Shown here piece by piece: positions 15,433 to 31,529 of a stretch of 62,023 nt of DNA. The stretch is from contig DASUTC010000025.1 of NCBI GenBank assembly GCA_036374795.1, positions 1 through 62,023 on the forward strand, read 5' to 3'. The position numbers were made by a program, and so were the translations under genes. The DNA is from Herpetosiphonaceae bacterium (GTDB lineage Bacteria; Chloroflexota; Chloroflexia; Chloroflexales; Kallotenuaceae). Position 1 is the stretch's first letter; each line of letters begins with the position of its first letter. A model generated the notes under the pieces. That model made no database searches and was not told where the DNA came from. It saw only the letters and a list, made by a program, of their open reading frames with translations.

Positions 15433-15846
15433 ATGAGCAGCGAACGACGAAGCGTAGAAGGAGAATTGCCGGACGGCATCGGTGATCGCGCGCACGGCTA
15501 CGAGCATAACCCGAATCCTGAAGATCAGGTCGAGGCCAATCGCGCGCGCTTCGAGGAGATGCAGCGCAAATTGCAGCGGGAGCGTGAGGCCGCCGCCAAA
15601 GCGATCCAGGGCGTGCAGCGGCAGCTTGAGGAGCAGTACGTGGCCGCGCAGCAAGACCCGGAGCATCAGGCCTTTATCGCCGAGCAGGTAGAGCACGAGT
15701 ACACCGATCGACCGAGTCTGCGGGGTGGTCAGGAGCAGAGCGGCGATGAGCACGTTGGCACCGTGGGATCGAGCAACGCCGAGGTCGGGCGGCACGTTCC
15801 CGTACCGACCACGCCGAGGAACGCCGAGGAGTTCAACCGCGAGTAG
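15433..15846 (+). CDS. Small acidic coiled-coil/disordered protein
   Basis: This 137-residue, highly charged protein has no hydrophobic core. Residues 35-75 (rich in Arg, Glu, Gln and Ala) should form a helical coiled coil; the N- and C-terminal parts look disordered, with many Gly, Asp, Glu and Pro residues. The start ATG follows AAGGAG at an appropriate distance; the frame upstream to 15259 crosses an intergenic repeat-like stretch and is unlikely to be coding. The function is unknown. The composition resembles hydrophilins or stress proteins, but that is only a compositional hint. Confidence 0.65.
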   Translation: MSSERRSVEGELPDGIGDRAHGYEHNPNPEDQVEANRARFEEMQRKLQREREAAAKAIQGVQRQLEEQYVAAQQDPEHQAFIAEQVEHEYTDRPSLRGGQEQSGDEHVGTVGSSNAEVGRHVPVPTTPRNAEEFNRE

Positions 15847-16125: not shown

Positions 16126-16227
16126 GTATGGACTGGATACATATCGTGGCTCGATAGCACGTAGTTAGACTGGCGATGAGTCCGGGCGCGATCCGCGCTG
16201 GCTCATCTGCCAGCTTTGAATGGAATA

Positions 16228-18432
16228 ATGATTCGCACAACACAACAATCGCTGCGTTTCGGGCCGGTCGCCCTGGAAGCGTCCGATCCCAGGCCGGCGC
16301 CATACTTTCTGTCGGGGCGGAAGCTGTACGCGATCGGCACAACCAACGGCGCGCTCGAACCCGTCGGCGCGGAGCATCTGGTGGGTGAGATGGGCGGCGT
16401 CTGGGCGCATCCGGTCAAGTTTTTAGACGGCTGGTATCTCTCGATCCAGGATCAGTTGGGCCGCGACGACCTGCTGCGCTGCCAGGCATTTGAAGGCCAT
16501 CTCAGCGATGTCACGATGCAGTTCGCGCACGGGCCGCTCCGCATCAGCCGCACCGACTTCGTAGCCGACGACGAAGCTGTGCTCTTCTCGCTGATCGAGA
16601 TCGCCAACACCGGAGCGACCGCCTGGAGCGGAAAGCTTGGCTTTGTGGCGCAGGTCAATATCCTGCCGACGTGGTTTAGCGGCTGGGAGCGCGGCGGCGT
16701 CGAGATGCTGCAAGATCATGGCCTGGTCGTGGCCTTCGATAAGCTCTGGCAGGGCCGCTGGGGCGTCGTCTTCGGCAGCTCAACGATGCCCGGCGAGATC
16801 GCCTTCGGCAAGCGCGACCGCAGCCACACGGCGGAGCTGCGCTACAACCTGACGCTCCAGCCCGACGAGCGCGTCAATCTGGAGTTTCTGGTAGCCTGCG
16901 ATCACCAGAACGGACACTACGGCGCGCTCCAGCTCTTTGGCAACGCGACCGGACGCGGCGCTGAGCTGCTGCAACACAAACGCGAGCGCTACCACAAGAC
17001 CGCCCTGGAAGGCGTAGCGCTGAGCACGCCCGACCAGCAGATCAACCACGACTGGATCCTGGCGAAGGCCAATCTGCTGATGCTTGAGGCCGACTACGGC
17101 CCGTATCTGCCCGGCTTTCTTCTGGCTGGCATTCCCGAATATCCCCAGCTCTTCGGCTGCGACAACACCTACACCACGCCCGGCGCGACCGCCGCAGGCT
17201 TTACGACGATCATGCGCTCCACGCTTGGCCTGCTGGGCGATCATGCTCGCCGCGCCTGTGGCCGCGTGCCGCACGAGATCACCACCAACGGGCGGGTCTT
17301 CAATCCGGGCAACACCCAGGAAACGCCGCAGTTCGCGATGGCCGTCTGGGATTATATCCGCTGGACCGGCGACATCTCCTTTTTGCGCGTGATCTACCCG
17401 GTCTGCCGCGAAGGCGTGATGGACTACCTGCCGGGTATCTGGGACTGGGACCGCGACGGCTATCCCACAGGAGACGCGATGGTCGAGCGGACCGGCATGG
17501 GATCGCTCAAGCTCGACTCGGCCTGCTACCTCTACGGGGCGTGGCGCGCGCTGGCCGAGATGGCGCGCGTGCTGGGCCGGCCTGAGGCAGAGGACTACGC
17601 CCGCCTTGCCAACGACTGGCTCCATCGCTTCGAGCGCGACTGGTGGCTGCCCGACCAGGGATTGTACGCCGACTCGCTGCACTCGGACTACCGGCCACAG
17701 CTCGACGGACACTGGACGCAGGTCGTGCCGGTGCAGCTCGGCATCGCGCGGCCCGATCGCGCGGTGCGGGTGCTGGAAACGCTGGAGCGCGAGTTCACCA
17801 ATCGCTGGGGCCTGGTGCATACCCGCGATCGTGAGGATCGCGTGTGGACGCTGCCGACCGGGCTGATGGTGCTGGCGGAGCTCCGCTATGGCCGTGTCGA
17901 GCACGCGCTGCGCTTCTTGAGCAACATCTCGCTGACGGTGCGCCAGGGCATGCTGGGCGCGTTCAAAGAGCTGATCCCGGAGGGCCTATGCTTCGTCCAG
18001 TTGTGGTCGGCGGGGCTCTACCTCCAGGGCTGGCTCGAAGGCGTGCTCGGCCTCGATCCGCGCGCTCACGAGCACCGGCTGTCGATCGCGCCCGTGCTGC
18101 CGGAGGCATGGCCCTCTGCGACCGTGAGCGGCCTACGGGTTGGGGCGCACCTGCTCAACATCACTGTCGCCAGGAGCGGCTGCACCGTCGAGCACCTGCA
18201 AGGCCCGCAGGCCATCGGCATTAGCTTCTCGCCCCGTGGTACAGCAGTTGCAGCGATCGAAACGACCGGCTACAGTCCAAGTCTGCCAGCGCGACACAGC
18301 ACCATGCTGGGCGATAGCCTGGTATTCGAAGTCGGCGTCGGGCAGCAGGTTGCAGTGCAGATCGATGCCGGACGAGCACAGATCGCGTACGGCGACCGCC
18401 GCTCGGCGGCGGTGTCGGTCGAAGTGGCCTGA
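16228..18432 (+). CDS. Glycogen-debranching-type glycosidase
   Basis: This 734-residue protein is probably cytoplasmic, as it has no signal peptide. The first third is a beta-sandwich domain like the N-terminal domain of bacterial debranching enzymes. The C-terminal half is an alpha/alpha toroid with motifs such as FGCDNTYTTPG, TGMGSLKLDSACYLYGAW and WTLPTGLM, typical of amylo-alpha-1,6-glucosidase-like and related inverting glycosidases. The likely substrates are alpha-glucans or their oligosaccharides, an inference helped by the sugar transporters just downstream. Start: ATG 16228 is taken; a TTG at 16216 in the same frame is an alternative. Neither has a strong ribosome-binding site. Confidence 0.8.
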   Translation: MIRTTQQSLRFGPVALEASDPRPAPYFLSGRKLYAIGTTNGALEPVGAEHLVGEMGGVWAHPVKFLDGWYLSIQDQLGRDDLLRCQAFEGHLSDVTMQFAHGPLRISRTDFVADDEAVLFSLIEIANTGATAWSGKLGFVAQVNILPTWFSGWERGGVEMLQDHGLVVAFDKLWQGRWGVVFGSSTMPGEIAFGKRDRSHTAELRYNLTLQPDERVNLEFLVACDHQNGHYGALQLFGNATGRGAELLQHKRERYHKTALEGVALSTPDQQINHDWILAKANLLMLEADYGPYLPGFLLAGIPEYPQLFGCDNTYTTPGATAAGFTTIMRSTLGLLGDHARRACGRVPHEITTNGRVFNPGNTQETPQFAMAVWDYIRWTGDISFLRVIYPVCREGVMDYLPGIWDWDRDGYPTGDAMVERTGMGSLKLDSACYLYGAWRALAEMARVLGRPEAEDYARLANDWLHRFERDWWLPDQGLYADSLHSDYRPQLDGHWTQVVPVQLGIARPDRAVRVLETLEREFTNRWGLVHTRDREDRVWTLPTGLMVLAELRYGRVEHALRFLSNISLTVRQGMLGAFKELIPEGLCFVQLWSAGLYLQGWLEGVLGLDPRAHEHRLSIAPVLPEAWPSATVSGLRVGAHLLNITVARSGCTVEHLQGPQAIGISFSPRGTAVAAIETTGYSPSLPARHSTMLGDSLVFEVGVGQQVAVQIDAGRAQIAYGDRRSAAVSVEVA

Positions 18433-18451: not shown

Positions 18452-18712
18452 ATGAGCGATCGAACGCAAAATACGGGTAGTTCCGGCGACAGGCCGCTCT
18501 TCCAGAACATGGATGAGCAGGAGCGCATCTACGCCCCACAGCAGGTGCCGGGTGAGATCAGCGACGAGCTGGACGAGCGCGGCGCGCGGGCTGCGGGCAC
18601 GGAGCCGATCGTGCCGGGCACCCCGACGACAGCGATCGACACGCCGATACCGGGAGCCAAAGCGATCGACCCGCTTGACCGCGACGAGCCGACGCGCAGC
18701 CGCGAGCTCTAG
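18452..18712 (+). CDS. Small disordered protein, DEQExIYAPQQVPGE family, copy 1
   Basis: This 86-residue acidic, hydrophilic protein has no predicted membrane or globular segment. Residues about 14-34 contain the motif PLFQNMDEQERIYAPQQVPG, shared almost identically with the next gene and, in shorter form, with the gene at 27819. The C-terminal tail (Pro, Thr, Asp, Arg) is unlike that of its copies. A good Shine-Dalgarno (AAGGAG) precedes the ATG. It follows the glycosidase gene by 19 nt, probably in the same transcript. I know of no described function. Confidence 0.75.
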   Translation: MSDRTQNTGSSGDRPLFQNMDEQERIYAPQQVPGEISDELDERGARAAGTEPIVPGTPTTAIDTPIPGAKAIDPLDRDEPTRSREL

Positions 18713-18796
18713 GCGGGGGCGAAAGAACGAAGTTCAACGTTCAAGGCTCGACAAGCTTGAAACCTTGAAACTCGGACCTCGGAAAGGAATGATGGT

Positions 18797-19087
18797 ATGA
18801 GCGATCGAAATCAAAACACCGGCTCATCCGGCGACAAGCCGCTCTTCCAGAACATGGACGAGCAGGAGCGCATCTACGCCCCGCAGCAGGTGCCGGGCGA
18901 GATCAGCGACGAGCTGGACGAGCGCGGCGTGGGAGAAACCGGGCGTGGACAGGATACCGCCGATCGAGTAGGCGTCGTGCCGGTCCGCCCCGATACCGGC
19001 ATCAACTCGCCTGTGCCGGTGCCGATTGTCACGCACGAGCGCGAGGACAATGAGGGCGCGCGCGATACCACCCAGGGCAAAGGCTAG
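18797..19087 (+). CDS. Small disordered protein, DEQExIYAPQQVPGE family, copy 2
   Basis: This 96-residue paralogue of the preceding gene has 41 of its first 43 aligned residues after Met identical (differences Thr/Asn and Arg/Lys), while the C-terminal halves do not align. At the DNA level the differences in the shared part are mostly third-base changes. This indicates a tandem duplication kept under protein-level selection at the N-terminus. A Shine-Dalgarno AAAGGAA lies upstream. It lies 240 nt ahead of the first sugar-binding lipoprotein gene. Confidence 0.75.
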   Translation: MSDRNQNTGSSGDKPLFQNMDEQERIYAPQQVPGEISDELDERGVGETGRGQDTADRVGVVPVRPDTGINSPVPVPIVTHEREDNEGARDTTQGKG

Positions 19088-19186
19088 GCGGCACAACCCT
19101 CCCAAACACAGCCGACACAGCGCCGCTCGATGATTGGGATGCGCTGTGTCGGCGTATACGGAGCAAAACGCGGCATCGATTGCGAG

Positions 19187-19192
19187 TATAAT
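19187..19192 (+). promoter_or_regulatory. Possible -10 of the first sugar transporter operon
   Basis: Perfect TATAAT about 135 nt upstream of the lipoprotein gene. No -35 or TG extension is evident, so support is limited to the hexamer and position. Confidence 0.35.
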
Positions 19193-19327
19193 CTATAGCT
19201 GCTCCCCAGCCTATAGCTCGGCTCGTGCTACCGCGATTTCGTAGACATCGGGAGGAGGTGAGGCCGCACTCACACCGAATCACAGCCGATGGATTAAGCC
19301 GCGTTCGCTCACAACAGTAAGGAGTCG

Positions 19328-20821
19328 ATGAAGATGTCTAACAAGCGAATCTATCTCGTGACGCTGCTCCTGTCGCTGCTCCTGCCGCTCCTCGCGGCAT
19401 GCGGCGGTGGCGGTGCAGGAACCACGACCACCCCCGGCGCAGGCTCGCCAGCTGCATCCGCGCCAGGATCTCCGGCGGCGAGCGCTGAGCCATCGCCTGC
19501 TGCATCAGAAGCGGCCACTGGTGAAGCATCCCCCGCCGCCACCTCGACGACAGCAGCAGATGCATCGCCCTCCGGATCGCCTGCGGGATCGCCTGGCGCT
19601 GGCGGCGCTGAACTCGATTTCAGCAAGCTGGAAGTCGAAGACGGCGCGCAGCTCCGCTTCCTCGCGTCGGGCAACAACACCGAGCAGCAGCTCTACACCG
19701 AGGGCGCGGAGCGCTTCAACCAGCTCTTCCCCAATGCCAAGCTGACCTTCGAGCCGGTGCCCGCCGAGTATGAGACGACGATCACCGCTGGCTTCTCCGG
19801 CGGCAACGCGCCCGATGTCTTCTTGCTCAACGGGCAGTTGATGGGCACGCTCGCCCCGCAAGGGCTGCTCCTGCCCCTCGACGACACGATGAGCCAGGTT
19901 GGGCGGGCGGCAGACGACTACTACGAGTCGCTGATCAGCCTCTACCAGGCCGACGGCAAGACCTATGGCCTGCCCAAGGACTTCAACCCGCTGGTGCTGT
20001 TCGTCAACACCGATCTTGCCCAGAAAGCGGGCGTCGATCCGGCCAGCGTCAAGACCTGGAACGATCTCAGAGACGCCGCCAAGAAGATGACGCAGGGCGA
20101 AGGCGCGGGCAAAGTTTACGGGCTGTGCCTCACGCCGGACATCGAGCGCTACGGCGCGTCGATGCTTCAGAACGGCAACCCGATCATCGAGAACGGCAAG
20201 GCGGTCTTCAACAACGAGAAGGGCATTCAGGCGATCCAGTTCTGGAAAGACGTTCAGGAAGAAGGCTCCGCCGCCACGTTCCAGGATCTCAGCGCGGGCT
20301 GGTGCGGCGAGGCGTTCGCCAAGCAGGCGGCGGCGATGGTCGTCGAGGGCGGCTGGCTGGTGCCGTTCATGGCCGATCCGCAGCAGGGCGGCCAGGATGT
20401 GAAATATACCGCCGTGCCGCTGCCGACGCCTGAGGGCGGGCAGCAGACCTCGCTGCTCTTCACCAACGGCTTTGCCGCCAACGCCAACACCAAGTATCCC
20501 AAGGCTGCGGCAGCCGCCGTGCTCTTCCTGACCAGCGAGCAGAACCAGCAGGCATTGATCCCGAGCGGCCTGGCGCAGCCCAGCTTGCAGAGCCTGGCCG
20601 ACGATCCGTACTTCGCGCAGAACCCGGTCGCGCAGACGTTGGTCCAGGCCGCGCAGAACGGGCGCGTCTCAGAGGTGGTCTTCGGCGGACCCGCCAAGAA
20701 AGCCGACGTGGTGCGCGCGATCAACCAGAACGGCATCGAGGCGATTCTGGTCGGCGGCTCGGATGTGAAGTCGGCGCTCGACGCGGCGGCACAGGAAGTC
20801 GATCAAATTATGCAGCGGTAG
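19328..20821 (+). CDS. Sugar ABC transporter substrate-binding lipoprotein (family 1)
   Basis: This 497-residue extracellular solute-binding protein of the maltose/oligosaccharide class has a signal peptide ending in the lipobox LLAAC with acylated Cys25. It is followed by a Gly run and a roughly 65-residue Ala/Ser/Pro/Thr tether. The binding domain (from about residue 95) has the family pattern, for instance AGFSGGNAPDVFLLNGQLMG and the later GWLVPFMADP. ATG 19328 is 3 nt from AAGGAG; the second in-frame ATG (19334) has a more usual 9-nt spacing and may be the real start. It heads an operon with two permeases. No ATPase gene is present. Confidence 0.92.
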   Translation: MKMSNKRIYLVTLLLSLLLPLLAACGGGGAGTTTTPGAGSPAASAPGSPAASAEPSPAASEAATGEASPAATSTTAADASPSGSPAGSPGAGGAELDFSKLEVEDGAQLRFLASGNNTEQQLYTEGAERFNQLFPNAKLTFEPVPAEYETTITAGFSGGNAPDVFLLNGQLMGTLAPQGLLLPLDDTMSQVGRAADDYYESLISLYQADGKTYGLPKDFNPLVLFVNTDLAQKAGVDPASVKTWNDLRDAAKKMTQGEGAGKVYGLCLTPDIERYGASMLQNGNPIIENGKAVFNNEKGIQAIQFWKDVQEEGSAATFQDLSAGWCGEAFAKQAAAMVVEGGWLVPFMADPQQGGQDVKYTAVPLPTPEGGQQTSLLFTNGFAANANTKYPKAAAAAVLFLTSEQNQQALIPSGLAQPSLQSLADDPYFAQNPVAQTLVQAAQNGRVSEVVFGGPAKKADVVRAINQNGIEAILVGGSDVKSALDAAAQEVDQIMQR

Positions 20822-20830
20822 GCAGCTCGC

Positions 20831-20864
20831 GTGGGCGACGTACCCACCTGGGCGCGTCGCCCAC
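20831..20864 (+). terminator. Intergenic hairpin between lipoprotein and permease genes
   Basis: A perfect 10-bp stem GTGGGCGACG/CGTCGCCCAC with a 14-nt loop and no T-run. In this position it could stabilise the upstream mRNA or partly terminate, so that more binding protein than permease is made. Confidence 0.45.
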
Positions 20865-20894
20865 AAGGGTCTACCGGCTAGAAGGAGGCGAGGC

Positions 20895-21887
20895 ATGGCG
20901 GCCTCAACCAATGCGGCGACTCCGCCCCAACGGCGCAGCAGCACACTGGCGCGGCAGGAGGCGCTGACCGGCTATTTGTTTATTGCGCCCTATTTGATCA
21001 TCGCTGGTATTTTCACGTATGGCCTGCTGGCCTACGTGTTCTACATCAGCTTCACCGATCTGACGGCTTCGTTCGCGCAAAAGCCACCGGCCTTTGTCGG
21101 GCTGCGTAACTACATCCGTGCCCTGAACGAGCCAGACTTTCGGGTGTCGCTGACGAATGCCTTCTGGTACTTTGTGATCGTCACCACGTTCCAGACGATC
21201 GGCGCGATCCTGCTGGCGGTGCTGCTCAACACGCGGCTTCAGGGCATTCGCTTCTTCCGCACGCTGCTCTACTCGCCCAGCGTGGCCTCGTCGGTGGTGA
21301 TCTCGCTGATCTTCTTCTGGCTCTACCAGCGGCGCGGCTTTATCAACTACGCGCTCGGCACCGATATTGCCTGGCTGCGCAACGCCGACCGCATCTTTGA
21401 TCCGATCCTTCAGGTCTTTGGCGTCACCAGCCCGCCGAACTTTTTTCGCGGGCCGAGCATCACCTGGACCGCGCTGATGGTCATGAACATCTTTACAACC
21501 ATTCCGACGTTCATGATCATGTTCCTGGCGGCGCTGCAAGACATTCCCGGCCACCTGTACGAGGCCGCATCGATCGACGGGGCGACCGGGCCGCGCGCCT
21601 TCTGGTATATCACGCTGCCGATGCTCCGTCCGGTGATTACGCTGGTGGTGATTCTGGGTACGATCGGCACCTTCCAGGTCTTCGACCAGGCGTACGTACT
21701 GACTGAGGGCGGGCCGCTCAAGACGACGCTCACGCCGACGCTGCTAATCTATCAAAAGACGCTCGGCAAGGGCACGCAGCCCGAAGCGTCCTTCGGCGCG
21801 GCGATGGCGTTCATCCTGGCGGCGATCATCGTGCTGATTACCATCATCCAGCGCCGCTATATCGAGCGCGCGAATCTCGGCGAGTAG
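20895..21887 (+). CDS. Sugar ABC transporter permease (MalF type)
   Basis: This 330-residue inner-membrane permease has about six helices. The EAA loop that docks on the ATPase is at about 229-250 (EAASIDGATGPRAFWYITLP). An extended loop in the middle is typical of MalF/UgpA-type subunits. It forms a heterodimer with the following permease. A Shine-Dalgarno AAGGAGG lies upstream. It lies 73 nt after the binding protein and 23 nt before the second permease. Confidence 0.92.
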   Translation: MAASTNAATPPQRRSSTLARQEALTGYLFIAPYLIIAGIFTYGLLAYVFYISFTDLTASFAQKPPAFVGLRNYIRALNEPDFRVSLTNAFWYFVIVTTFQTIGAILLAVLLNTRLQGIRFFRTLLYSPSVASSVVISLIFFWLYQRRGFINYALGTDIAWLRNADRIFDPILQVFGVTSPPNFFRGPSITWTALMVMNIFTTIPTFMIMFLAALQDIPGHLYEAASIDGATGPRAFWYITLPMLRPVITLVVILGTIGTFQVFDQAYVLTEGGPLKTTLTPTLLIYQKTLGKGTQPEASFGAAMAFILAAIIVLITIIQRRYIERANLGE

Positions 21888-21910
21888 CTGCGACGAAAAG
21901 GGGGATTTGT

Positions 21911-22816
21911 ATGGCTGTCTCGGCAAAACAGCAACCAGTTGCAGCGACCAGCGCGCGCGAGGAGCGTCCGGCGTCGGCCTATATCGGCATCACGATCCGC
22001 TACCTCTTGCTGGCGCTGCTATCGCTCTTTGCTTTTACGCCCTTCATCCTGTCGTTCCTCGGCACCTTCAAGACCGCCGCCGAGGTGAATGCGTTTCCAC
22101 CGACGATCGTGCCTGAGCAGTGGCGCGTCGACAACTGGGTGCGTGTCTGGAGCTTTTCGATCCCGGCGGTCCAGGGACGTCTGCTGCCGCGCTGGCTCTT
22201 CAACAGCACCTGGCTGGCGCTGGTCAACGTGATCGCCCAGCTCTTCTTCTGCTCGCTGGCGGCCTATGCCTTCGCGCGGATTCGCTTTCCGGGCCGCGAT
22301 CTGATCTTTACGGCGATCATCGCCAGCATGGCGATCCCGGCAGCCGTCACGCTGATTCCGGGCTACGTCTTCTACTCGCGCCTGGGCTGGATCAACACGT
22401 ACTGGCCGCTGATCGTCCCGAAGCTGATCGTGCCGGTGGGCATTCTGATGCTGGCACAATTCTTCAGGTCGATCCCCAAGGAGCTTGAGGAGGCGGCCTA
22501 TATCGACGGCCTGGGGCGCTTCGGCACCTACTGGAATATCGCGCTGCCGCTGTCGAAGCCCGCGCTACTGACGTTCGCGATTCTGCAATTCCAGGGCTCG
22601 TGGAATGATTTTGTCGCGCCGCTGCTCTTCCTGCAAAGCCCGAAGCTGATGACGCTGACCGTTGGCATGAGCTTCTTCCGCTACCAGTATACCAACGACC
22701 TGACCGCAATTCTGGTCGGCGCGATGTTCAACGCGATCCCGATGCTGATTCTCTTCTTTATCTTCAGCAAATACTACATCGAGGGCACCAGCTACAGCGG
22801 CCTGGCGGGACAATAG
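21911..22816 (+). CDS. Sugar ABC transporter permease (MalG type)
   Basis: This 301-residue partner permease has six predicted helices. The EAA motif (EEAAYIDGLGRFGTYWNIAL) is near residues 195-214. The N-terminus is hydrophilic for about 28 residues. It is the last gene of the first sugar-transport operon and is followed by a large hairpin at 22891. The missing ATPase must be supplied from elsewhere, as known for MsmK/MsmX-type shared ATPases in other bacteria. Confidence 0.92.
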   Translation: MAVSAKQQPVAATSAREERPASAYIGITIRYLLLALLSLFAFTPFILSFLGTFKTAAEVNAFPPTIVPEQWRVDNWVRVWSFSIPAVQGRLLPRWLFNSTWLALVNVIAQLFFCSLAAYAFARIRFPGRDLIFTAIIASMAIPAAVTLIPGYVFYSRLGWINTYWPLIVPKLIVPVGILMLAQFFRSIPKELEEAAYIDGLGRFGTYWNIALPLSKPALLTFAILQFQGSWNDFVAPLLFLQSPKLMTLTVGMSFFRYQYTNDLTAILVGAMFNAIPMLILFFIFSKYYIEGTSYSGLAGQ

Positions 22817-22890
22817 ATCACCAGAGCGTACCCGGTCATCCGCTCTCATACAGCTTTTATCCTGCGGCAGCAAGCTACGAACCAGGTGAA

Positions 22891-22929
22891 GGTGCATCGC
22901 CTCGCGCTTTCAGCGCAAAGCGATGCACC
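22891..22929 (+). terminator. Nested hairpin after first sugar operon
   Basis: Perfect 10-bp outer stem GGTGCATCGC/GCGATGCACC enclosing a second inverted repeat GCGCT/AGCGC. AAAAG follows rather than a T-run. In the rest of the gap up to the next gene (22930-23309, 380 nt) I see no supported gene or repeat. Confidence 0.5.
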
Positions 22930-23309
22930 AAAAGAAACGCAGTACCGCCCTGCCCGAAGGCTCGTCCCATACGCGGGGTCAGCCTTGCTATACCAGCCTG
23001 GGCAACATACGATCACAGGGACAGGCACACATTCCCATAGCTGTATCCCACGCGAGAGCGGAGCATCGATCGCCGCAGCAGGCAAGGCCCAAAGGTCCTG
23101 TATGGCTGCAAGCAGATTGCGAGATTGTGGTAGTATTGAAGAAAGCATTGACGGAATCGCCCCAGAAGGAGCGCAAGATCTCGCTCGTGCGCCGTAAGGC
23201 CAGGGCTTTCTCACACAGCGCTTTGATTCTGAACTGGCAGCTATGATCATCTGGACGGTATTGGCGAGCGCAGGTAGGATCAACCTTGGAAGCAGCGAAA
23301 GGGAGCGTG

Positions 23310-24062
23310 ATGACATCTGACCGACCCGATCGTTCACCCGCTCGGCGTCGCGCGCCGTCGGTTGCGATTGCCTTTCGCACGCTGATGCGCACCCTACGTC
23401 ATGGGTACGAAAACCTCGGCACGCTGCTGCTCGTGAGCCTGCTGTGGTACGCCGCCGCGATCCTGATCCTGCCGATCGGGGTAGGCACGGCAGCGCTGCA
23501 CCGGGTGGTACAGCCGATGACCGAGGAGCGCAGCGCCGACTGGCGTAGCTTTTTCAGCCACCTGCGCGCCGATCTTCGCTGGAGCTCGCTGCTGACGATC
23601 ATCCTCGCGCTCGGCTTCTTCATCATCCGGCTCAACATCGGCTTCTATGGCGCATCCGACTCAGCGGTTTTTCAGGTGATCGCTGTGTTCTTTGGGACGC
23701 TCCTGATCATCTGGTTGGGCATAGCGCTCTTTGCCTTTCCGCTCGCGCTGCGGCAGCAGGAGCAGCATCTACGGACGACATTGCGCAATGCCTTGATCAT
23801 GGTGTTTGCCAATGCGCCCGGCGTGCTCATCTCGCTCGTCCTGCTGCTCCTGCTGGTCGTCGTGCTGGTCTTCATCCCGCCGCTCTTCGCGATCGTGCCC
23901 GGCGTGATTGCCCTCTGGAGCGCGGAAAACACACGCCTGCTGCTGGTCGCATCGGGCTACGTGCCGCGCGACGAGATCGCCGACCGTGAAAAAGGCAGCG
24001 CTCCGCCAGATCTAACAACTCGTCCGCATCCTCGGCGCTCGACGAAGAGGCCGATCAAATAG
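23310..24062 (+). CDS. YesL-like (DUF624-type) membrane protein
   Basis: This 250-residue protein has about five or six membrane helices (visible hydrophobic stretches near 35-60, 95-115, 120-145, 165-190 and 190-215) and a basic, Pro-rich C-terminal tail. The N-terminal arrangement, with a long helix followed by GVGTAALHRVV and a Trp-rich cytosolic segment, resembles YesL/DUF624 proteins. These commonly sit beside carbohydrate ABC transporters, as here, and their function is not defined. ATG 23310 has GGGAG 4 nt upstream; an earlier TTG at 23286 is less likely. Confidence 0.65.
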   Translation: MTSDRPDRSPARRRAPSVAIAFRTLMRTLRHGYENLGTLLLVSLLWYAAAILILPIGVGTAALHRVVQPMTEERSADWRSFFSHLRADLRWSSLLTIILALGFFIIRLNIGFYGASDSAVFQVIAVFFGTLLIIWLGIALFAFPLALRQQEQHLRTTLRNALIMVFANAPGVLISLVLLLLLVVVLVFIPPLFAIVPGVIALWSAENTRLLLVASGYVPRDEIADREKGSAPPDLTTRPHPRRSTKRPIK

Positions 24063-24212
24063 GGGTATCGCCGCCCCTGAACAACTCGCGCAACTCGCCA
24101 GTTCGCAGCGTGCTCCAACCTATCCCCCCATCACAGCTATGTTGGTATGTATGTTGCTGCTACAGGGTGATCGTACCGTAGACATCTAGGCACGTTCCCC
24201 TGTTACGCTGGC

Positions 24213-24221
24213 TGATATAGT
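24213..24221 (+). promoter_or_regulatory. Extended -10 promoter of second sugar operon
   Basis: TGA followed by TATAGT (5 of 6 consensus). It gives a leader of about 55 nt for the lipoprotein gene. No -35 is seen. Confidence 0.45.
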
Positions 24222-24282
24222 GGTCAGTGCCGTCTTGTTGTCCCGCGACGGCGTGGGAATCAACGGCGGCAAAGGAGCATAT

Positions 24283-25848
24283 ATGGTCCATCGACGAAGT
24301 TTCGCCTGGCTACTCTTGATCGCGCTCCTCGTGCCGATCTTGGTCGCGTGCGGTGGTGGCGAGGGAGCAGCACCGGCGGGAACAACCGGGGCGGCATCGC
24401 CATCGGCGTCACCGGCAGCATCACCAGCCGCATCGGCGTCACCGGCAGCATCACCATCACCAGCAGAATCACCGGCAGCCACCACCGAGGCATCTCCTGC
24501 GGCAACGACGGGCGCGGCGGCATCGCCATCGGCAACCGACACAGCCGCCACCGGCACGGCGGGCGGCGCCACGGGCGGCGGCGATGAGTCGCTGATCGGC
24601 GCGGAGCCTTCGGCTGAGACAGCTCCGGCCTTCGCGGGCGCTGAGCAGGCCAAGCAGTACAGCGGCGCGACCATCACCTACTACGGCGATACGGTCGGCA
24701 TCGGCGCGAACCTGGACAAGGCGCTCGCGGATCGCTTCACCCAGGAGACTGGCATCAAGGTCAACATCGTGCCCAAGCCGCAGAACGCGACGGAGAACTA
24801 CGCTACCTACCAGCGCTTGTTCCAGGCACAGTCGGGCGACATCGACGTGCTGATGGTCGACGTGATCTGGCCGGGCGCGTTCGCTCCGCATCTGGCCGAT
24901 CTGACCCAGGCGCTGGGCGAGGAGGCCAAGCAGCACTATCCGGGCATCATCCAGAACAACACCATCGAGGGCAAGCTCGTGGCGATGCCCTGGTTCGGCG
25001 ACTTCGGCATGCTCTTCTATCGCACCGACCTGCTTCAGAAGTACGGCTACAGCGCGCCGCCCAAGACCTGGGACGAGCTTGAGGAGATGGCAAAGAAGAT
25101 TCAGGACGGCGAGCGCGCCAGCACGCCTGACTTCCAGGGCTTCGTCTTCCAGGGCAACGCCTACGAGGGCCTGACCTGCGACGCGCTTGAGTGGCTGGCG
25201 TCGAGCAACGGCGGCACGATCATCGACGAGGACGGCAAGGTGACAGTCAACAATCCGCAGGCCGTCGAGATCCTCAACAAGGCGCGTGGCTGGATCGGCA
25301 CGATCTCGCCGCGTGGCGTGACGGGCTACCAGGAAGAAGAAGCGCGCAACACCTTCCAGGGCGGCAACGCCGCCTTCATGCGCAACTGGCCGTACGCCTA
25401 CTCCGCGGGCAACAGCGCGGACTCGCCGATCAAGGGCAAGTTCGACGTCGCGCCGCTGCCGGCAGCGGAAGACCAGAAGCCGGTCGGCACCGTCGGCGGC
25501 TGGCAGCTCGCCGTCTCGAACTACTCCAAGAACAAGGACGCCGCGATCGAGTTCGTGCGCTACATGACCAGCCCTGAGGTCCAGACCTACCGCGCGCTGA
25601 TCGGCAGCTACGTGCCCACGATTGCGAGCGTCGCCGAGGATGCGGCGGTGATCAAGGCTATGCCGTTCCTGGAGAACCTGGCGGACGTGCAGCGCGTGAC
25701 GCGCCCATCGGCCACCACCGGCGAGCGCTACAACGAAGTCTCGACCGCGTTCTTCCAGGGCATGAACCAGATCCTCAACGGGCAGGATGCCGCGCAGGTG
25801 CTACCGGGCGTCCAGCAGCGCATCGAGCGGATCGTCGGCTCACGCTAA
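24283..25848 (+). CDS. Sugar ABC transporter substrate-binding lipoprotein (second system)
   Basis: This 521-residue lipoprotein has a signal peptide ending in LVAC-Gly with acylated Cys near residue 24. It is followed by a very long tether (about 28-110) of Ala/Ser/Pro/Thr repeats encoded by near-repetitive DNA. The mature domain is a family 1 solute-binding protein resembling trehalose/maltose-binding subunits (motifs GATITYYGDTVG, LMVDVIWPGAFAPHL, FMRNWPYAYS). ATG 24283 follows AAAGGAG at a suitable distance; an earlier GTG at 24220 would disrupt the signal peptide. It starts the second transporter operon, again without an ATPase gene. Confidence 0.92.
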   Translation: MVHRRSFAWLLLIALLVPILVACGGGEGAAPAGTTGAASPSASPAASPAASASPAASPSPAESPAATTEASPAATTGAAASPSATDTAATGTAGGATGGGDESLIGAEPSAETAPAFAGAEQAKQYSGATITYYGDTVGIGANLDKALADRFTQETGIKVNIVPKPQNATENYATYQRLFQAQSGDIDVLMVDVIWPGAFAPHLADLTQALGEEAKQHYPGIIQNNTIEGKLVAMPWFGDFGMLFYRTDLLQKYGYSAPPKTWDELEEMAKKIQDGERASTPDFQGFVFQGNAYEGLTCDALEWLASSNGGTIIDEDGKVTVNNPQAVEILNKARGWIGTISPRGVTGYQEEEARNTFQGGNAAFMRNWPYAYSAGNSADSPIKGKFDVAPLPAAEDQKPVGTVGGWQLAVSNYSKNKDAAIEFVRYMTSPEVQTYRALIGSYVPTIASVAEDAAVIKAMPFLENLADVQRVTRPSATTGERYNEVSTAFFQGMNQILNGQDAAQVLPGVQQRIERIVGSR

Positions 25849-25937
25849 CATGTCGGCAGTGGTTCGCCGAGGAGGGAGCTACACCCTTACAACGCGAACA
25901 ACGTGACTCGGTTGTAACCGGCACGCGGGCGGGGAGC

Positions 25938-25957
25938 GGGGAGCAGCCTGGCTCCCC
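25938..25957 (+). terminator. Intergenic hairpin between lipoprotein and permease genes
   Basis: GGGGAGC pairs with GCTCCCC across a 6-nt loop; GGGGAGC also occurs directly upstream as a tandem copy. No clear T-run follows. It has the same position as the hairpin in the first sugar operon. Confidence 0.4.
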
Positions 25958-25983
25958 CTCTTCGCCCAGAAGGAGAGTTTCTC

Positions 25984-26925
25984 ATGGGACAAGGACAACC
26001 GGTTGTCAGTACCCGGCAGGCAACCACTGCGCCTAAACGCGGCAAAGATACCGATCTCACACGTGCGCGTACCCGCCTGGCCTGGCTGTTGCTCACACCA
26101 ACGCTCGCCATCGTCGCCTTCATTGCGCTCTGGCCGCTGCTGCAAACGATCTATCTGAGCTTCACCAACGCGCGTCTCGCCAGCACGTCGCCTACCAAAT
26201 TTATCGGCCTGGAGAACTACGCCTACCTGATTCAGGATCAGCAGTTTCGCCAATCGATCTGGGTTACGGTTCAGTTCACGGCGCTCACCGTCGTCTTCGA
26301 GTTTCTGCTCGGCCTGGGCGTGGCGCTGGTGATCAACTCCAACTTCAAAGGGCGCGGCCTGATGCGCACGGCGATGCTGATCCCGTGGGCGATCCCGACG
26401 GTAGTCTCGGCCCAGATGTGGAAGTGGATGTACAACGACATCTACGGCGTGATCAACGATCTCTTCAGGCGCTTTGGGCTGATCAGCCAGAACGTCGCGT
26501 TCGTCGCCGATCCGGGCACCTCGATCCCGGCGATTGCGGCGGTGGACATCTGGAAGACCACGCCTTTTGTCGCGCTGCTGCTGCTGGCGGGCTTGCAGGT
26601 GATCCCCGGCGATGTCTATGAGGCCGCGTATGTGGACGGCGCAAACCGGATTCAGCAGTTCTTCCGCATCACGCTGCCGCTGCTGCGCCCCGCGATTCTG
26701 GTCACGCTGATCTTCCGCACGCTGGACGCGCTGCGCGTCTTCGATGTCTTCTACGTGATGTTCGGCGCGCGCCAGGATACGCAGACGATGGCGATCTATA
26801 ACCAGCAAAATCTGGTCAACTTCTCCGATCTGGGATACGGCGCGGCGATCAGTATGGCGATCTTTATCATCATCGGCATCTTTGTAGCGCTGTATGTCAC
26901 GTTCCTGAAAGTAGAGGAGGCGTAA
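25984..26925 (+). CDS. Sugar ABC transporter permease (MalF type, second system)
   Basis: This 313-residue permease has about six helices and an EAA loop at about residues 214-233 (EAAYVDGANRIQQFFRITLP). The cytoplasmic N-terminus is basic. A strong Shine-Dalgarno AAGGAG precedes the ATG. It lies 135 nt after the lipoprotein gene and its stop is 1 nt from the next start, so the two permeases are translationally coupled. Confidence 0.92.
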   Translation: MGQGQPVVSTRQATTAPKRGKDTDLTRARTRLAWLLLTPTLAIVAFIALWPLLQTIYLSFTNARLASTSPTKFIGLENYAYLIQDQQFRQSIWVTVQFTALTVVFEFLLGLGVALVINSNFKGRGLMRTAMLIPWAIPTVVSAQMWKWMYNDIYGVINDLFRRFGLISQNVAFVADPGTSIPAIAAVDIWKTTPFVALLLLAGLQVIPGDVYEAAYVDGANRIQQFFRITLPLLRPAILVTLIFRTLDALRVFDVFYVMFGARQDTQTMAIYNQQNLVNFSDLGYGAAISMAIFIIIGIFVALYVTFLKVEEA

Positions 26926-26926
26926 T

Positions 26927-27778
26927 ATGCCGGAATCTCGTTCAAATATTGTCTCGCGTGGCCTCTTTTACTTTCTGGTCGCCGTCATTCTAGTCTATAC
27001 CATGTTTCCGTTCTACTGGGCGCTGAAATCGTCGTTTACGCCGACCAACGAGCTTTTCAAGACGCCAGTCGAGTACTGGCCCAACAGCCCCACATTGGCG
27101 CATTACGGGACTGTCTTTCGCAACAATGTCTTCCTGGTGGCGCTGCTCAACTCGACGATCGTTGCCGGGTCGGTGACGATTCTGTCGCTGATCATCGGCG
27201 CGTTCGGCGCGTACGCCCTGGGCCGCTTCCGCTTCCGAGGCCGCAGCCCCGTGCTGTATCTCGTGCTGTCGATGACGATGTTTCCGCAGATCGCGGTGCT
27301 CGGCTCGCTCTATAACATGGTCAACCGCTTTGGGCTGTTCAACCGGCTTGGCGCGCTGATCCTGACCTATCTGATCTTTACGCTGCCGTTTACGGTCTGG
27401 GTGCTGACCAATTTCTTCAAGGCGATGCCAAGCGAGCTGGAGGAGGCGGCCTACGTAGACGGCGCGACGCCGTTCCAGACCTTCTACAAGGTGCTGCTGC
27501 CGCTCGCCGCGCCCGGCCTGGTGACGACGGGCCTGCTGGCGTTTATCGCCGCCTGGAACGAGTTTCTCTACGCGCTCTCGTTCACACAGACGCCCGATCG
27601 CTACACCGTCACGCTGGCGATCTTCAACTTCGCGCCGCAGACCAGCGGCGGCTTTGAGATCCCCTGGGGTCCGATCATGGCCGCGACTGTCGTGGTGACG
27701 GTGCCGCTGGTGGTGCTGACGCTAATCTTCCAGCGCCGAATCATGGCCGGCCTTACTGCAGGCGCGGTCAAGGGCTAG
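26927..27778 (+). CDS. Sugar ABC transporter permease (MalG type, second system)
   Basis: This 283-residue permease has six helices and an EAA motif (EEAAYVDGATPFQTFYKVLL) around residues 171-190. It pairs with the preceding permease to form the membrane channel. Its ribosome-binding site GGAGG is inside the end of the previous gene. A small disordered-protein gene follows 40 nt later with its own -10 box. Confidence 0.92.
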   Translation: MPESRSNIVSRGLFYFLVAVILVYTMFPFYWALKSSFTPTNELFKTPVEYWPNSPTLAHYGTVFRNNVFLVALLNSTIVAGSVTILSLIIGAFGAYALGRFRFRGRSPVLYLVLSMTMFPQIAVLGSLYNMVNRFGLFNRLGALILTYLIFTLPFTVWVLTNFFKAMPSELEEAAYVDGATPFQTFYKVLLPLAAPGLVTTGLLAFIAAWNEFLYALSFTQTPDRYTVTLAIFNFAPQTSGGFEIPWGPIMAATVVVTVPLVVLTLIFQRRIMAGLTAGAVKG

Positions 27779-27789
27779 CCGTGTGAGGC

Positions 27790-27795
27790 TATAAT
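27790..27795 (+). promoter_or_regulatory. Possible -10 of the third small-protein gene
   Basis: Perfect TATAAT 23 nt upstream of the ATG at 27819, with AGGAGGGGAG between. The -35 region is weak. Confidence 0.4.
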
Positions 27796-27818
27796 ACCGA
27801 GGAGTACAGGAGGGGAGC

Positions 27819-28130
27819 ATGAGCGAAGATCGATTGTTCAAAAACGCAGACGAGCAGGAGAAGATATACGCGCCGCAGCAAGTGCCAGGCGAGCCGCAGG
27901 AGCAGGTAGCGGCGGACGAGCATAGCATGACGCCACGCGATCGCACCGAGGATCACACGCCGGTCGCGGTGGGCCTTGGCACCGGTGGCAGCGCTGCTGC
28001 GACTCCCGCCTCGGATGAGTTCGAGCCGGGTATGAACCGCGAAGAGCGCGATCTGCGGCGCGGAGATACCGATGTGGTCGGGCCTGATCCCAGCGATCAG
28101 GCGGGCGTGGAGCGTCGCCGCGTGCGGTAG
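27819..28130 (+). CDS. Small disordered protein, DEQExIYAPQQVPGE family, copy 3
   Basis: This 103-residue hydrophilic acidic protein has an N-terminal RLFKNADEQEKIYAPQQVPG that matches the signature of the two proteins at 18452 and 18797, while the rest differs. The conserved core is LFxNxDEQExIYAPQQVPGE. It lies immediately downstream of the second sugar transporter, whereas the other two lie immediately upstream of the first. A strong Shine-Dalgarno (GGAGGGGAG) is present. No known domain is recognised. Confidence 0.72.
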   Translation: MSEDRLFKNADEQEKIYAPQQVPGEPQEQVAADEHSMTPRDRTEDHTPVAVGLGTGGSAAATPASDEFEPGMNREERDLRRGDTDVVGPDPSDQAGVERRRVR

Positions 28131-28361: not shown

Positions 28362-31300
28362 GTGACGATGGAGGCATGGCGCACCGCAGCTACCCGCTGG
28401 GGAGATACCGTTTTTGAGCTGGCGCTGCTGCTGACGAACCAGCGCGCAGCAGCCGAGGCCGCCACCGTGGCAGCATTTTGCCGCGTATTTTCCGGCGCGA
28501 CCGGCGCCGAGGCCGAGCAGGCGCTCTACCACGCGCTGATCACCGAGCGGCAGCGCTGGCGACAGCCGCTCCGCAACCGGGTGCTGCCGCGCGCGCTCGC
28601 CCGGATCGAGCCGCTTGATCGCGCGCTGCTTGGCCTGTGGCTGCTGCGCCATGTGGACGGCGAGCGGCTTGCAGCGATCGTCGGGCAGACTCCGCAGGCG
28701 ATGATCGCGCGGCTGACGACGCTGCTGACTCGCACGACCAATATTCCGCTCGCGGACACGCAGCCCGACGGAGCGCATCTGACGCTAGGGACCTGGCTGG
28801 AGGCCGAGCTTGGGCTGCATACGCAGCCCATGGCGCATCTCCGCACATGCGCGCGCTGCCGGGCGGCTCAGACAAGCTGGCAGAACGCGATCGCGACACT
28901 GCGCGGGATGCTTCAGGAGACGCTCAAAAAAGAGCACCTGCCGCCCGCCTGTATCGACGCGATCGAGGATGCGCTGATCGCTCGGCAGGCAGCGGAGCCG
29001 CAGCGCTGGTGGCAGCAGCGCCGCGTCTGGATTCCGGCGTTTTTCCTCAGCATCGGCCTGGTGGTCGCGCTGCTCGTCGTGCCCTGGGGCAATCGTATCG
29101 CTCAGCAGGCAGCAGCGCCCGCCACCGCCCGCGCGCTGGTGCAGGAGACGATCGACGGCTGGATGAGCGCGCCGGTTTCGGATACGCTGCATCGGCAAGT
29201 GTGGGCGATCGATCCACGGCTCCAGAGCGCCGAGCCGCTGATCACCGATCTGTGGCTGAGCGGAGCAGCGCCGGAGCACTATCGCGTCGAGGTGCGGTAT
29301 AACAACCGGCTGGTCGAGTGGCAGCTTGGCGACGGCAAGGGCCGCCTGAGCTACGCGGGCGAGCCGAGCTATTCCTCGTGTCCCTGGCGCACCGACGCCA
29401 GCGCCCAGTTTCGGATGCTCGATCAGGCCGCGCTGACCTTCCGGGTGACGCCGGAGCAGCAGCGCGCCGCGCGCGAGGCGCGGCTGTCGCAGGGCGCGTA
29501 CGGCCTGGGCTACGGCGCGCTGCGGCAAGCGCTGGTCGCCGACGACCTGCGCTCGTTCGGTACGCGGCAGGAGCAGCAGCGCTCGCTGGTGGTGCTGGGC
29601 TACACCGACCGACAGGCGGAGCCCGCGCGGCAGATCTTGCTGCGGATCGATCCCGTCTCCAGGCAGCTCTACGGCGTTCAAGAGGTCGCCCTGGGCGGCG
29701 GTCAGACCAAGACGCGCGATCTGTGGCGGCTTCAGGCCCAGGAGCAGATCGAGACATCCATCCCGGCGCATTTACCACGCTGGCCTCAGTCGGTCACGCG
29801 CGAGCAGCTTTTCGATGCAGCATGCCCCGCCCTGAATCCGCAGCACGTGGTCAGCCTGAGCACGCTCGTCGGCGACTCCCAGCAGTGGTATCTGCCGCGT
29901 GAGATGCCGCCGGACACCAGTCGCGCCGCGATGCTGACGCTCAACCCGATCGTCGCTTATATCGACTACACGCCGCTGGGCGTGCCCCGTGGCAGCGTCG
30001 CTACGTTTCTAGGCAACGATCGCTGGCTTACGATCTCGGATCTGGACTGGCATCCTGGCGCGGCTACGGTTAAGCAGATCGCGCGCGGGCCGTGGCTGGT
30101 CGACGTCGCCGCGCAGCCCAGGCCGGGCATCTGGAGCGCGCGGCTGCGCCCGGCGCGGGAGCGGGACAATAAGTTCAGCCCGACGATCGCGCTATATGCT
30201 GGCGGCTGGTCCGAAGCAGAGCTACTGGACGTGATCGACACGCTGCAACTCTTCGATCCCCAGATCTGGATCGCGCTCGACGCCGGGTTTCTCGACGCGC
30301 GACCGCTGCCGCAGCCGGTTCACGACAGCATTCGACGCGCCTTTATCGCGCTGCAACCACAGCCTGACAGTGCCCTGTACAGCGCGACTAAAACCGTCGT
30401 TCGCGTCAACCCCGAGTCGACGCACCTGAGCGATCCCTACCAGATCGCCGCTGCGCAGCGCTCGCCGGAGTCGCTGATCAGAAAGCAGTGGCAGATCTAC
30501 GCCGACGGCCAGCTAAGCGGCTTCCGCGATCTGCGCGCGCTTCCCGACGACACGCCCTACGCGCTGATCGCCAGCGACGGCAGCCAGTTCAAAGTGTATA
30601 TGAGCGTTGATGGTCGGCTCTACACCGGCGACGCGGCAGTGCTCCCGCTCAAACCGCAGCAGCCCGGCGTCGAGATGGTGCGCTCGCTGTTACGCGCCAA
30701 CGAGCCGATCACGATCCTCGATCAGGACGGCGCGTGGGTCTTGCAACAGTCGTCGCCGTACCGCTTCGTCACGCTTAGCTTCGAGTTCAACAGCCCCGGA
30801 CTCCAGCAGACGCCCTGGACCGAGGGCCTGATCGACGGCGTGATCGTGCGGCGGCTCTGGCTGGACCGCGAGACGTTCATGCCCAAGGCGTTCGCGCTCT
30901 TCCACCGCTCGCCGCAAGGCCAGGAGACGCCCCTGGTGAGCACAACCATCATCGAGCGAGGGGCGGTCGCTGCGCCGGCGAAGGATGCGCTGCTGGAGCT
31001 GTCGCCGCTGCCCGCCGATACGCTGACGATGCAGGTGACGGCAGTACGTGAGACGGCGATCGATACCTCGATGTACCCGCCCGTCCGGCGCGTGCTGGCC
31101 TGGCCCGCGTCGCCGGAGGTGGCCGTCGGCGAGCCACCCCAGCAGCGCGGCTCGCGCACGCAACTGTCGAACAGCGGCCTCTGGCAGCAGCGCTGGGATA
31201 GCTTCGTGCCCTCCGACATCTGGCATCAGCGGATCTATCGCTTCCCGCCCGACGATCTTCCGATCACGATCACGCAGGGACCGCACGATCTGATGCGTCA

Positions 31301-31529
31301 TATCCTGCGCTACCAGACATCGGTGCAGAGCTGGAGCAGCAGCCGCGCGATCCCCGTCACCATCGCCGGAGAATCCCAGACCGCCTGGCTGCTCTCCAAC
31401 GACAACGCGGCGGCGCTCGTCATCGAGGTCGACGATCTGCTGGTGCATATCGCCGGGCCGATCGGCTACCTGCAAGGGCCGCTCATCGATCGGCTGCCCA
31501 ACCTGGTGTGGACGCCGGTCCAGCCGTGA
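28362..31529 (+). CDS. Sigma-like/zinc-finger/transmembrane fusion protein
   Basis: This 1055-residue protein has an unusual architecture. Residues 1-125 resemble a degenerate ECF sigma factor; the stretch 82-125 ([20 protein letters not shown], then a helix-turn-helix-like segment) resembles region 4. Residues 159-166 carry His-x3-Cys-x2-Cys as in anti-sigma zinc-finger proteins. A single membrane helix lies at about 222-241. The remaining roughly 800 residues would be outside the membrane, rich in beta strands and without a recognised domain. GTG 28362 is chosen because GGGGAAGG lies 7 nt upstream; ATG 28368 is an alternative. A sensing or regulatory role is inferred from domain order only. 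Confidence 0.75.

Follow-up and report, generated by a model that had tools for sequence, protein, structure and literature searches.

A family of small, predicted disordered proteins, in part encoded beside sugar importers, in one branch of the Chloroflexota

Three genes within a stretch of 62,023 nucleotides from a Herpetosiphonaceae bacterium (assembly GCA_036374795.1, contig DASUTC010000025.1, positions 1 to 62,023; hereafter the window) encode small proteins of a single family, which we call W1, W2 and W3. All three lie on the + strand, are preceded by purine-rich ribosome-binding sites and specify products of 86 (W1, 18452..18712), 96 (W2, 18797..19087) and 103 residues (W3, 27819..28130), whose shared stretch, LFxNxDEQExIYAPQQVPGE, gives way to tails bearing the motifs EPIVPGTPTTAIDTPIPGAKAID in W1, VGVVPVRPDTGINSPVPVPI in W2 and PVAVGLGTGGSAAATPASDEFEPGM in W3. 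In W1, this conserved head, PLFQNMDEQERIYAPQQVPG, occupies residues 15-34 (18494..18553, +), and the same head recurs in W2 at 18839..18898 (+).

W1 starts about 20 bp past the stop codon of a gene for a six-hairpin glycoside hydrolase (16216..18432, +; matches to MGH1-like, rhamnosidase-6H and GH65C), such that W1 and W2 sit between the hydrolase and a CUT1-type sugar ATP-binding cassette (ABC) operon that encodes a binding protein (SBP_bac_1) and two permeases (19328..22816, +). A second CUT1-type operon of the same composition (24220..27778, +) ends about 40 bp before the start of W3, and there is no ATPase gene in either operon. The cluster also contains a gene for a DUF624/MusI-like membrane protein (23286..24062, +), and a trehalose synthase gene (TreS, TIGR02456) lies further downstream of W3. 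The original prediction, made by a model from the letters of this DNA, had described the three genes at 18452, 18797 and 27819, their shared motif, the tandem pair upstream of the first sugar ABC operon and the third gene downstream of the second, all of which were borne out.

Across the family, the head follows the consensus PLFxNxDEQExxYAPQQ[LV]P, and five of its positions (F, D, E, A and P) never vary among 25 aligned copies. The proteins are acidic and hydrophilic, rich in Ala, Gly, Asp, Pro and Glu (11% Gly overall) and devoid of Cys in all 25 copies. A charge-hydropathy analysis assigns 22 of the 25 to the disordered class, and an AlphaFold model of W2, built from 14 sequences, contains no helix or strand (predicted local distance difference test score, pLDDT, 56; predicted template modeling score, pTM, 0.11). 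Members of the family are thus predicted to be intrinsically disordered, in agreement with the character first ascribed to them. Proteins so short and of such low complexity might resemble one another by chance or be conceptual translations of non-coding open reading frames; but synonymous sites have diverged while the encoded protein is conserved, and 35 copies have a start codon and the head in register, with E-values reaching 1e-26. These observations refute the possibility of chance or non-coding origin, to which we assign a negligible probability.

The original prediction had proposed a profile search and held that a motif confined to one genome would speak against it. We found 35 copies in 14 of the 15 genomes of two families, namely that of the window genome (f1) and a sister family (f2, which holds genomes G012 and G027), which together form the Kallotenue/Herpetosiphon branch of the Chloroflexota; the one genome without a copy is 75% complete. 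A profile built from 20 copies recovered two to seven copies per genome in all six f1 genomes, including five in the window genome (G000; 7.7 Mb in 373 contigs), and one in G012. A head-only profile, run on all 82 genomes of the order with weak matches inspected, and a second profile, run on 158 genomes of the class, added divergent copies. Six Herpetosiphon-like genomes have one apiece, G027 has two, G012 gains a second, and G003 has, in addition, one that is degenerate. This last copy, PLFQRVDEIEADQ (L173; G003 C100:7338-7556, -), is without the YAPQQ part and adjoins the gene for a LacI-type regulator. A member in G005 (C2, L054 4984-5619, -) continues in frame and with no stop codon into an apparent C-terminal piece of a TIM barrel of the sugar isomerase type, an arrangement that looks like either a fusion or a gene remnant.

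Outside these two families no credible copy was detected: three weak matches among the 158 genomes of the class (E 0.0025-0.024) were judged to be due to chance, as were the matches, all weak and off-family, obtained with the first profile in a draw of 400 genomes from the phylum. Viral contigs yielded no relative, and plasmids yielded one chance match (E = 0.4), with none when a Herpetosiphon copy served as query. The named contigs matched in the profile search are metagenome-assembled genomes of Chloroflexota. Carriers of the family include G021, which we take to be the cultured Herpetosiphon aurantiacus DSM 785. They also include the cultured Kallotenue papyrolyticum (G005 matches strain JKG1; PMC4669399) and, by its match to G012, Candidatus Anthektikosiphon siderophilum OHK22 (PMC7511795), and the branch as a whole comprises soil and hot-spring bacteria. 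Sequence searches of Pfam, NCBIfam and PDB returned no relative, Pfam giving nothing at E <= 1 for W1 to W3 and nothing meaningful for the divergent members, and a literature search on the motif letters returned nothing relevant. The family is undescribed, as had been supposed, and new to the libraries searched; it is restricted to a single branch and, as shown below, is under selection. It thus adds a selected protein family to a poorly studied branch of the Chloroflexota whose cultured carriers are open to experiment.

The tails had originally been regarded as unrelated, which is true of paralogs but not of orthologs. Each of the window proteins has an ortholog in G001 whose tail is conserved (W1 with G001a, at L082:9464-9712; W2 with G001b; W3 with G001c, at C983), with shuffle z-scores for the tail pairs of 13 for W1, 24 for W2 and 30 for W3. 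Orthologs of W2 occur in G001, G005, G012 and G027, and the W2-type tail holds a second motif, VPVRxDxxxNxPVPxP, that is conserved across the two families (VPVRPDTGINSPVPVPI, seen as VPARGDTSQNQPIPLPA in G012 and as VPVRGDLSQNQPVALPA in G027). A further tail group, VPAAGAGLLGQTGGG, is similarly cohesive (within-group shuffle z of 18-26). Tails therefore sort into recurrent subgroups and are unrelated only between paralogs.

The ratio of nonsynonymous to synonymous substitution rates (dN/dS) relative to G001 is 0.06 in the core and 0.20 in the tail of W1, and 0.13 and 0.39, respectively, in W2; for W3 the tail ratio is 0.29, with dS saturated in the core (dN 0.20), and dS lies between about 0.6 and 1.7 in the comparisons where it could be estimated. 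These ratios demonstrate purifying selection on both the head and the orthologous tails. The DNA of W1 and W2 is up to 97% identical over much of the first 135 bases and unrelated beyond, and despite these near-identical 5' parts, each tail has its own ortholog in G001. Because of this combination, we infer that gene conversion has homogenized the head within the tandem pair. A homogenized head joined to orthologous tails is what would be expected if the head has one partner and the tails have different ones.

A conserved N-terminal part followed by a diverging C-terminal part, in genes scattered over the genome, is also the organization of precursors of modified peptides with a conserved leader and a variable core, scattered precursors of the lanthipeptide or NHLP kind being examples. 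Such ribosomally synthesized and post-translationally modified peptides (RiPPs) are a very improbable identity for this family: the 25 copies contain no Cys, their orthologous tails are conserved with dN/dS of 0.2-0.4, no modifying enzyme or exporter was recognized beside the copies examined, and no RiPP family in Pfam or NCBIfam was matched. On the absence of Cys, the conservation of the tails and the lack of a recognized modifying enzyme at these copies, we reject it.

The association with sugar importers was assessed against the actual density of binding-protein genes, defined as all SBP_bac_1 matches together with one from PF13416. For 12 of the 25 copies, a CUT1 binding-protein gene is no more than 4 kb away, as against 0.89 expected (P = 1e-11), and when orthologous sites are collapsed by hand, five of 12 sites remain within this distance (P = 6e-4). 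One of these settings, directly before the binding-protein gene of a CUT1 operon (site 1), is occupied in three f1 genomes (G000, G001 and G005) and in G012 and G027 of the other family; in G012, the start codon of the family gene overlaps the stop codon of the hydrolase as ATGA. In relatives from two further related families (f3 and f4), the hydrolase and binding-protein genes are adjacent, with no small gene between them, which implies that the small gene was either added in the Kallotenue/Herpetosiphon branch or lost elsewhere. In a second setting, copies directly follow the last permease gene (W3, G001 C983, G005 C4, G004 C206, G003 C74 and G003 C247), and the permeases preceding them are of at least three types.

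Several observations weigh against a general tie to transport. With sites collapsed, no significant excess remains at a distance of 2 kb (P = 0.40). Neither the VPAAGAGLLGQTGGG tail group of f1 nor any of the six Herpetosiphon copies, one per genome, has a transporter as neighbor. In G002 and G003, the gene persists at its ancestral site between the DuOB and DUF624 genes, from which the hydrolase and first importer are gone (G003: L046 10450-11229 and 11521-11946; G002: L044 5601-5870 and 6160-6771). The correlation between tail subgroup and transporter type is loose, weak and confounded by orthology, and no copy adjoins the gene for a shared ATPase (OB_MalK). The link to ATPase-less CUT1 importers is thus real but partial and is not universal, and the neighborhood idea in the original prediction is partly supported: co-occurrence with sugar ABC transporters holds for the copies and sites counted above and fails for the VPAAGAGLLGQTGGG group, Herpetosiphon and the copies at the ancestral site of G002 and G003. 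None of the outcomes that it had named as fatal, i.e., a motif found in this genome alone, homologs dispersed with no neighborhood link, or neutral evolution, was observed.

These exceptions raise the question of whether the partner of the family is unrelated to transport, in which case the proteins would be general regulatory or assembly factors, and their adjacency to importers would reflect one conserved ancestral site plus duplications that happened to land in large carbohydrate-gene regions. The genomes are indeed very rich in sugar genes, the gene is kept without a transporter in G002 and G003, and the copies of Herpetosiphon and the VPAAGAGLLGQTGGG group are away from transporters. Moreover, the divergent Herpetosiphon-type copy (LFKDADEFERTYVGEQ; L149 4217-4420, -; also L148, L150, L151, L152, L171 and L172) has its own conserved site between lipoprotein and DUF4230 genes, which is common to G027. 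However, enrichment at the real density of binding-protein genes still yields P = 6e-4 after sites are collapsed, and the gene lies within tens of bases of permease stop codons in several separate operons. We consider a transport-unrelated partner a possible explanation, though a rather doubtful one.

Our preferred interpretation, which we advance tentatively and with distinctly less than even confidence, is that the family comprises cytosolic disordered adaptors or regulators in which the head docks on a partner common to many sugar systems and the tails provide subgroup specificity. Judged from sequence and gene context, these small proteins may assist or regulate the uptake of sugars. The head would be the docking element, folding on a single partner that all copies share or threading into it, and the differing tails would give each copy a subgroup-specific contact; a universal head combined with tails that differ by subgroup would suit a protein that has one partner in common with its paralogs and others of its own. 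Within transporter operons, the protein would connect the importer with a common component of the sugar-uptake machinery, and copies without transporter neighbors would act on the same partner in trans.

One candidate for this partner is the ATPase. Sharing of MsmX-type ATPases among importers is established in Bacillus (PMC7658222), and similar sharing is likely here, since the window's importers are without an ATPase gene and each genome has one to four OB_MalK ATPases for 13-31 SBP_bac_1 proteins. The system thereby resembles MsmX/UgpC multitask ATPases with their orphan CUT1 importers, and the partner in question could be the one to few MsmX/UgpC-like ATPases that would serve 13-31 binding proteins per genome. 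The MsmX system as described has no small adaptor, and the present family would represent an extra, lineage-specific component. Another candidate is the DUF624/MusI-like membrane protein, whose gene still adjoins the family gene after transporter loss in G002 and G003. In its most specific form, the adaptor model would hold that there is one paralogous disordered adaptor per importer, its universal head and importer-specific tail assigning or regulating the shared ATPase among many ATPase-less importers. We regard this form as improbable; if true, it would mean that sugar uptake through shared ATPases is subject to a previously unknown level of control, and adaptors of the broader kind would also bear on how many importers share one ATPase.

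SgrT of Escherichia coli is a single small protein that acts on a transporter of the phosphotransferase system (PTS). Like SgrT and like MusI/DUF624 (named in NCBIfam for maltose uptake in Corynebacterium), the family would comprise small or accessory products that act on sugar importers or whose genes accompany those of importers. It differs from both: SgrT is single and acts on the PTS, and MusI is a membrane protein, whereas the proteins described here are soluble and predicted to be disordered, carry two motifs, occur as many paralogs and have no sequence similarity to either.

A serious rival to the adaptor model, even if we consider it unlikely, is that these are stress-protectant disordered proteins akin to hydrophilins or late embryogenesis abundant (LEA) proteins, which would accumulate upon drying, heat or osmotic stress and be co-induced with neighboring genes for the supply of trehalose, maltose or osmoprotectants. 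The family shares with such proteins its small size, hydrophilicity, abundance of Gly and predicted disorder, as well as an acidic make-up; soil and hot-spring organisms carry it in multiple copies, the trehalose synthase gene lies downstream of W3, and the G004 C6 copy has an OpuAC glycine-betaine operon on its upstream side. Hydrophilins are defined by a Gly content above 6% and a hydrophilicity index above 1 (PMC7448490). The Gly content exceeds 6% in 22 of 25 copies, but at most 8 of the 25 have a grand average of hydropathy (GRAVY) of about -1 or lower, such that most copies fall short on the index (the sign-inverted Kyte-Doolittle mean). Neither an LEA nor any other Pfam match was obtained, and a fixed, strictly positioned motif of 18 residues with dN/dS of about 0.1 would be unexpected in a bulk protectant. 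Were the protectant role nonetheless correct, the family would extend the disordered proteins of bacteria by a class marked by a motif.

Two other conserved genes accompany the family in the window. A second small hydrophilic protein (MSSERRSVEGELPDGIGDRAHGYEHNPNPEDQ...), for which Pfam and NCBIfam gave no meaningful family match, is encoded beside a DuOB-domain gene (window 15433-15843, +; L041 8324-8809, -; L053 18207-18773, -). Downstream of W3, a gene at 28362-31529 (+) encodes a protein of 1055 residues with no Pfam match, orthologs of which follow a family member in L042 (G001 C983) and L053 (G005 C4). Its first part resembles, by eye, an extracytoplasmic function (ECF) sigma factor (the NCBIfam match to SigE is weak, E = 0.013); after it come a CxxC finger, a single transmembrane segment and a long remaining part. 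The protein is possibly a fusion of sigma factor, anti-sigma factor and sensor.

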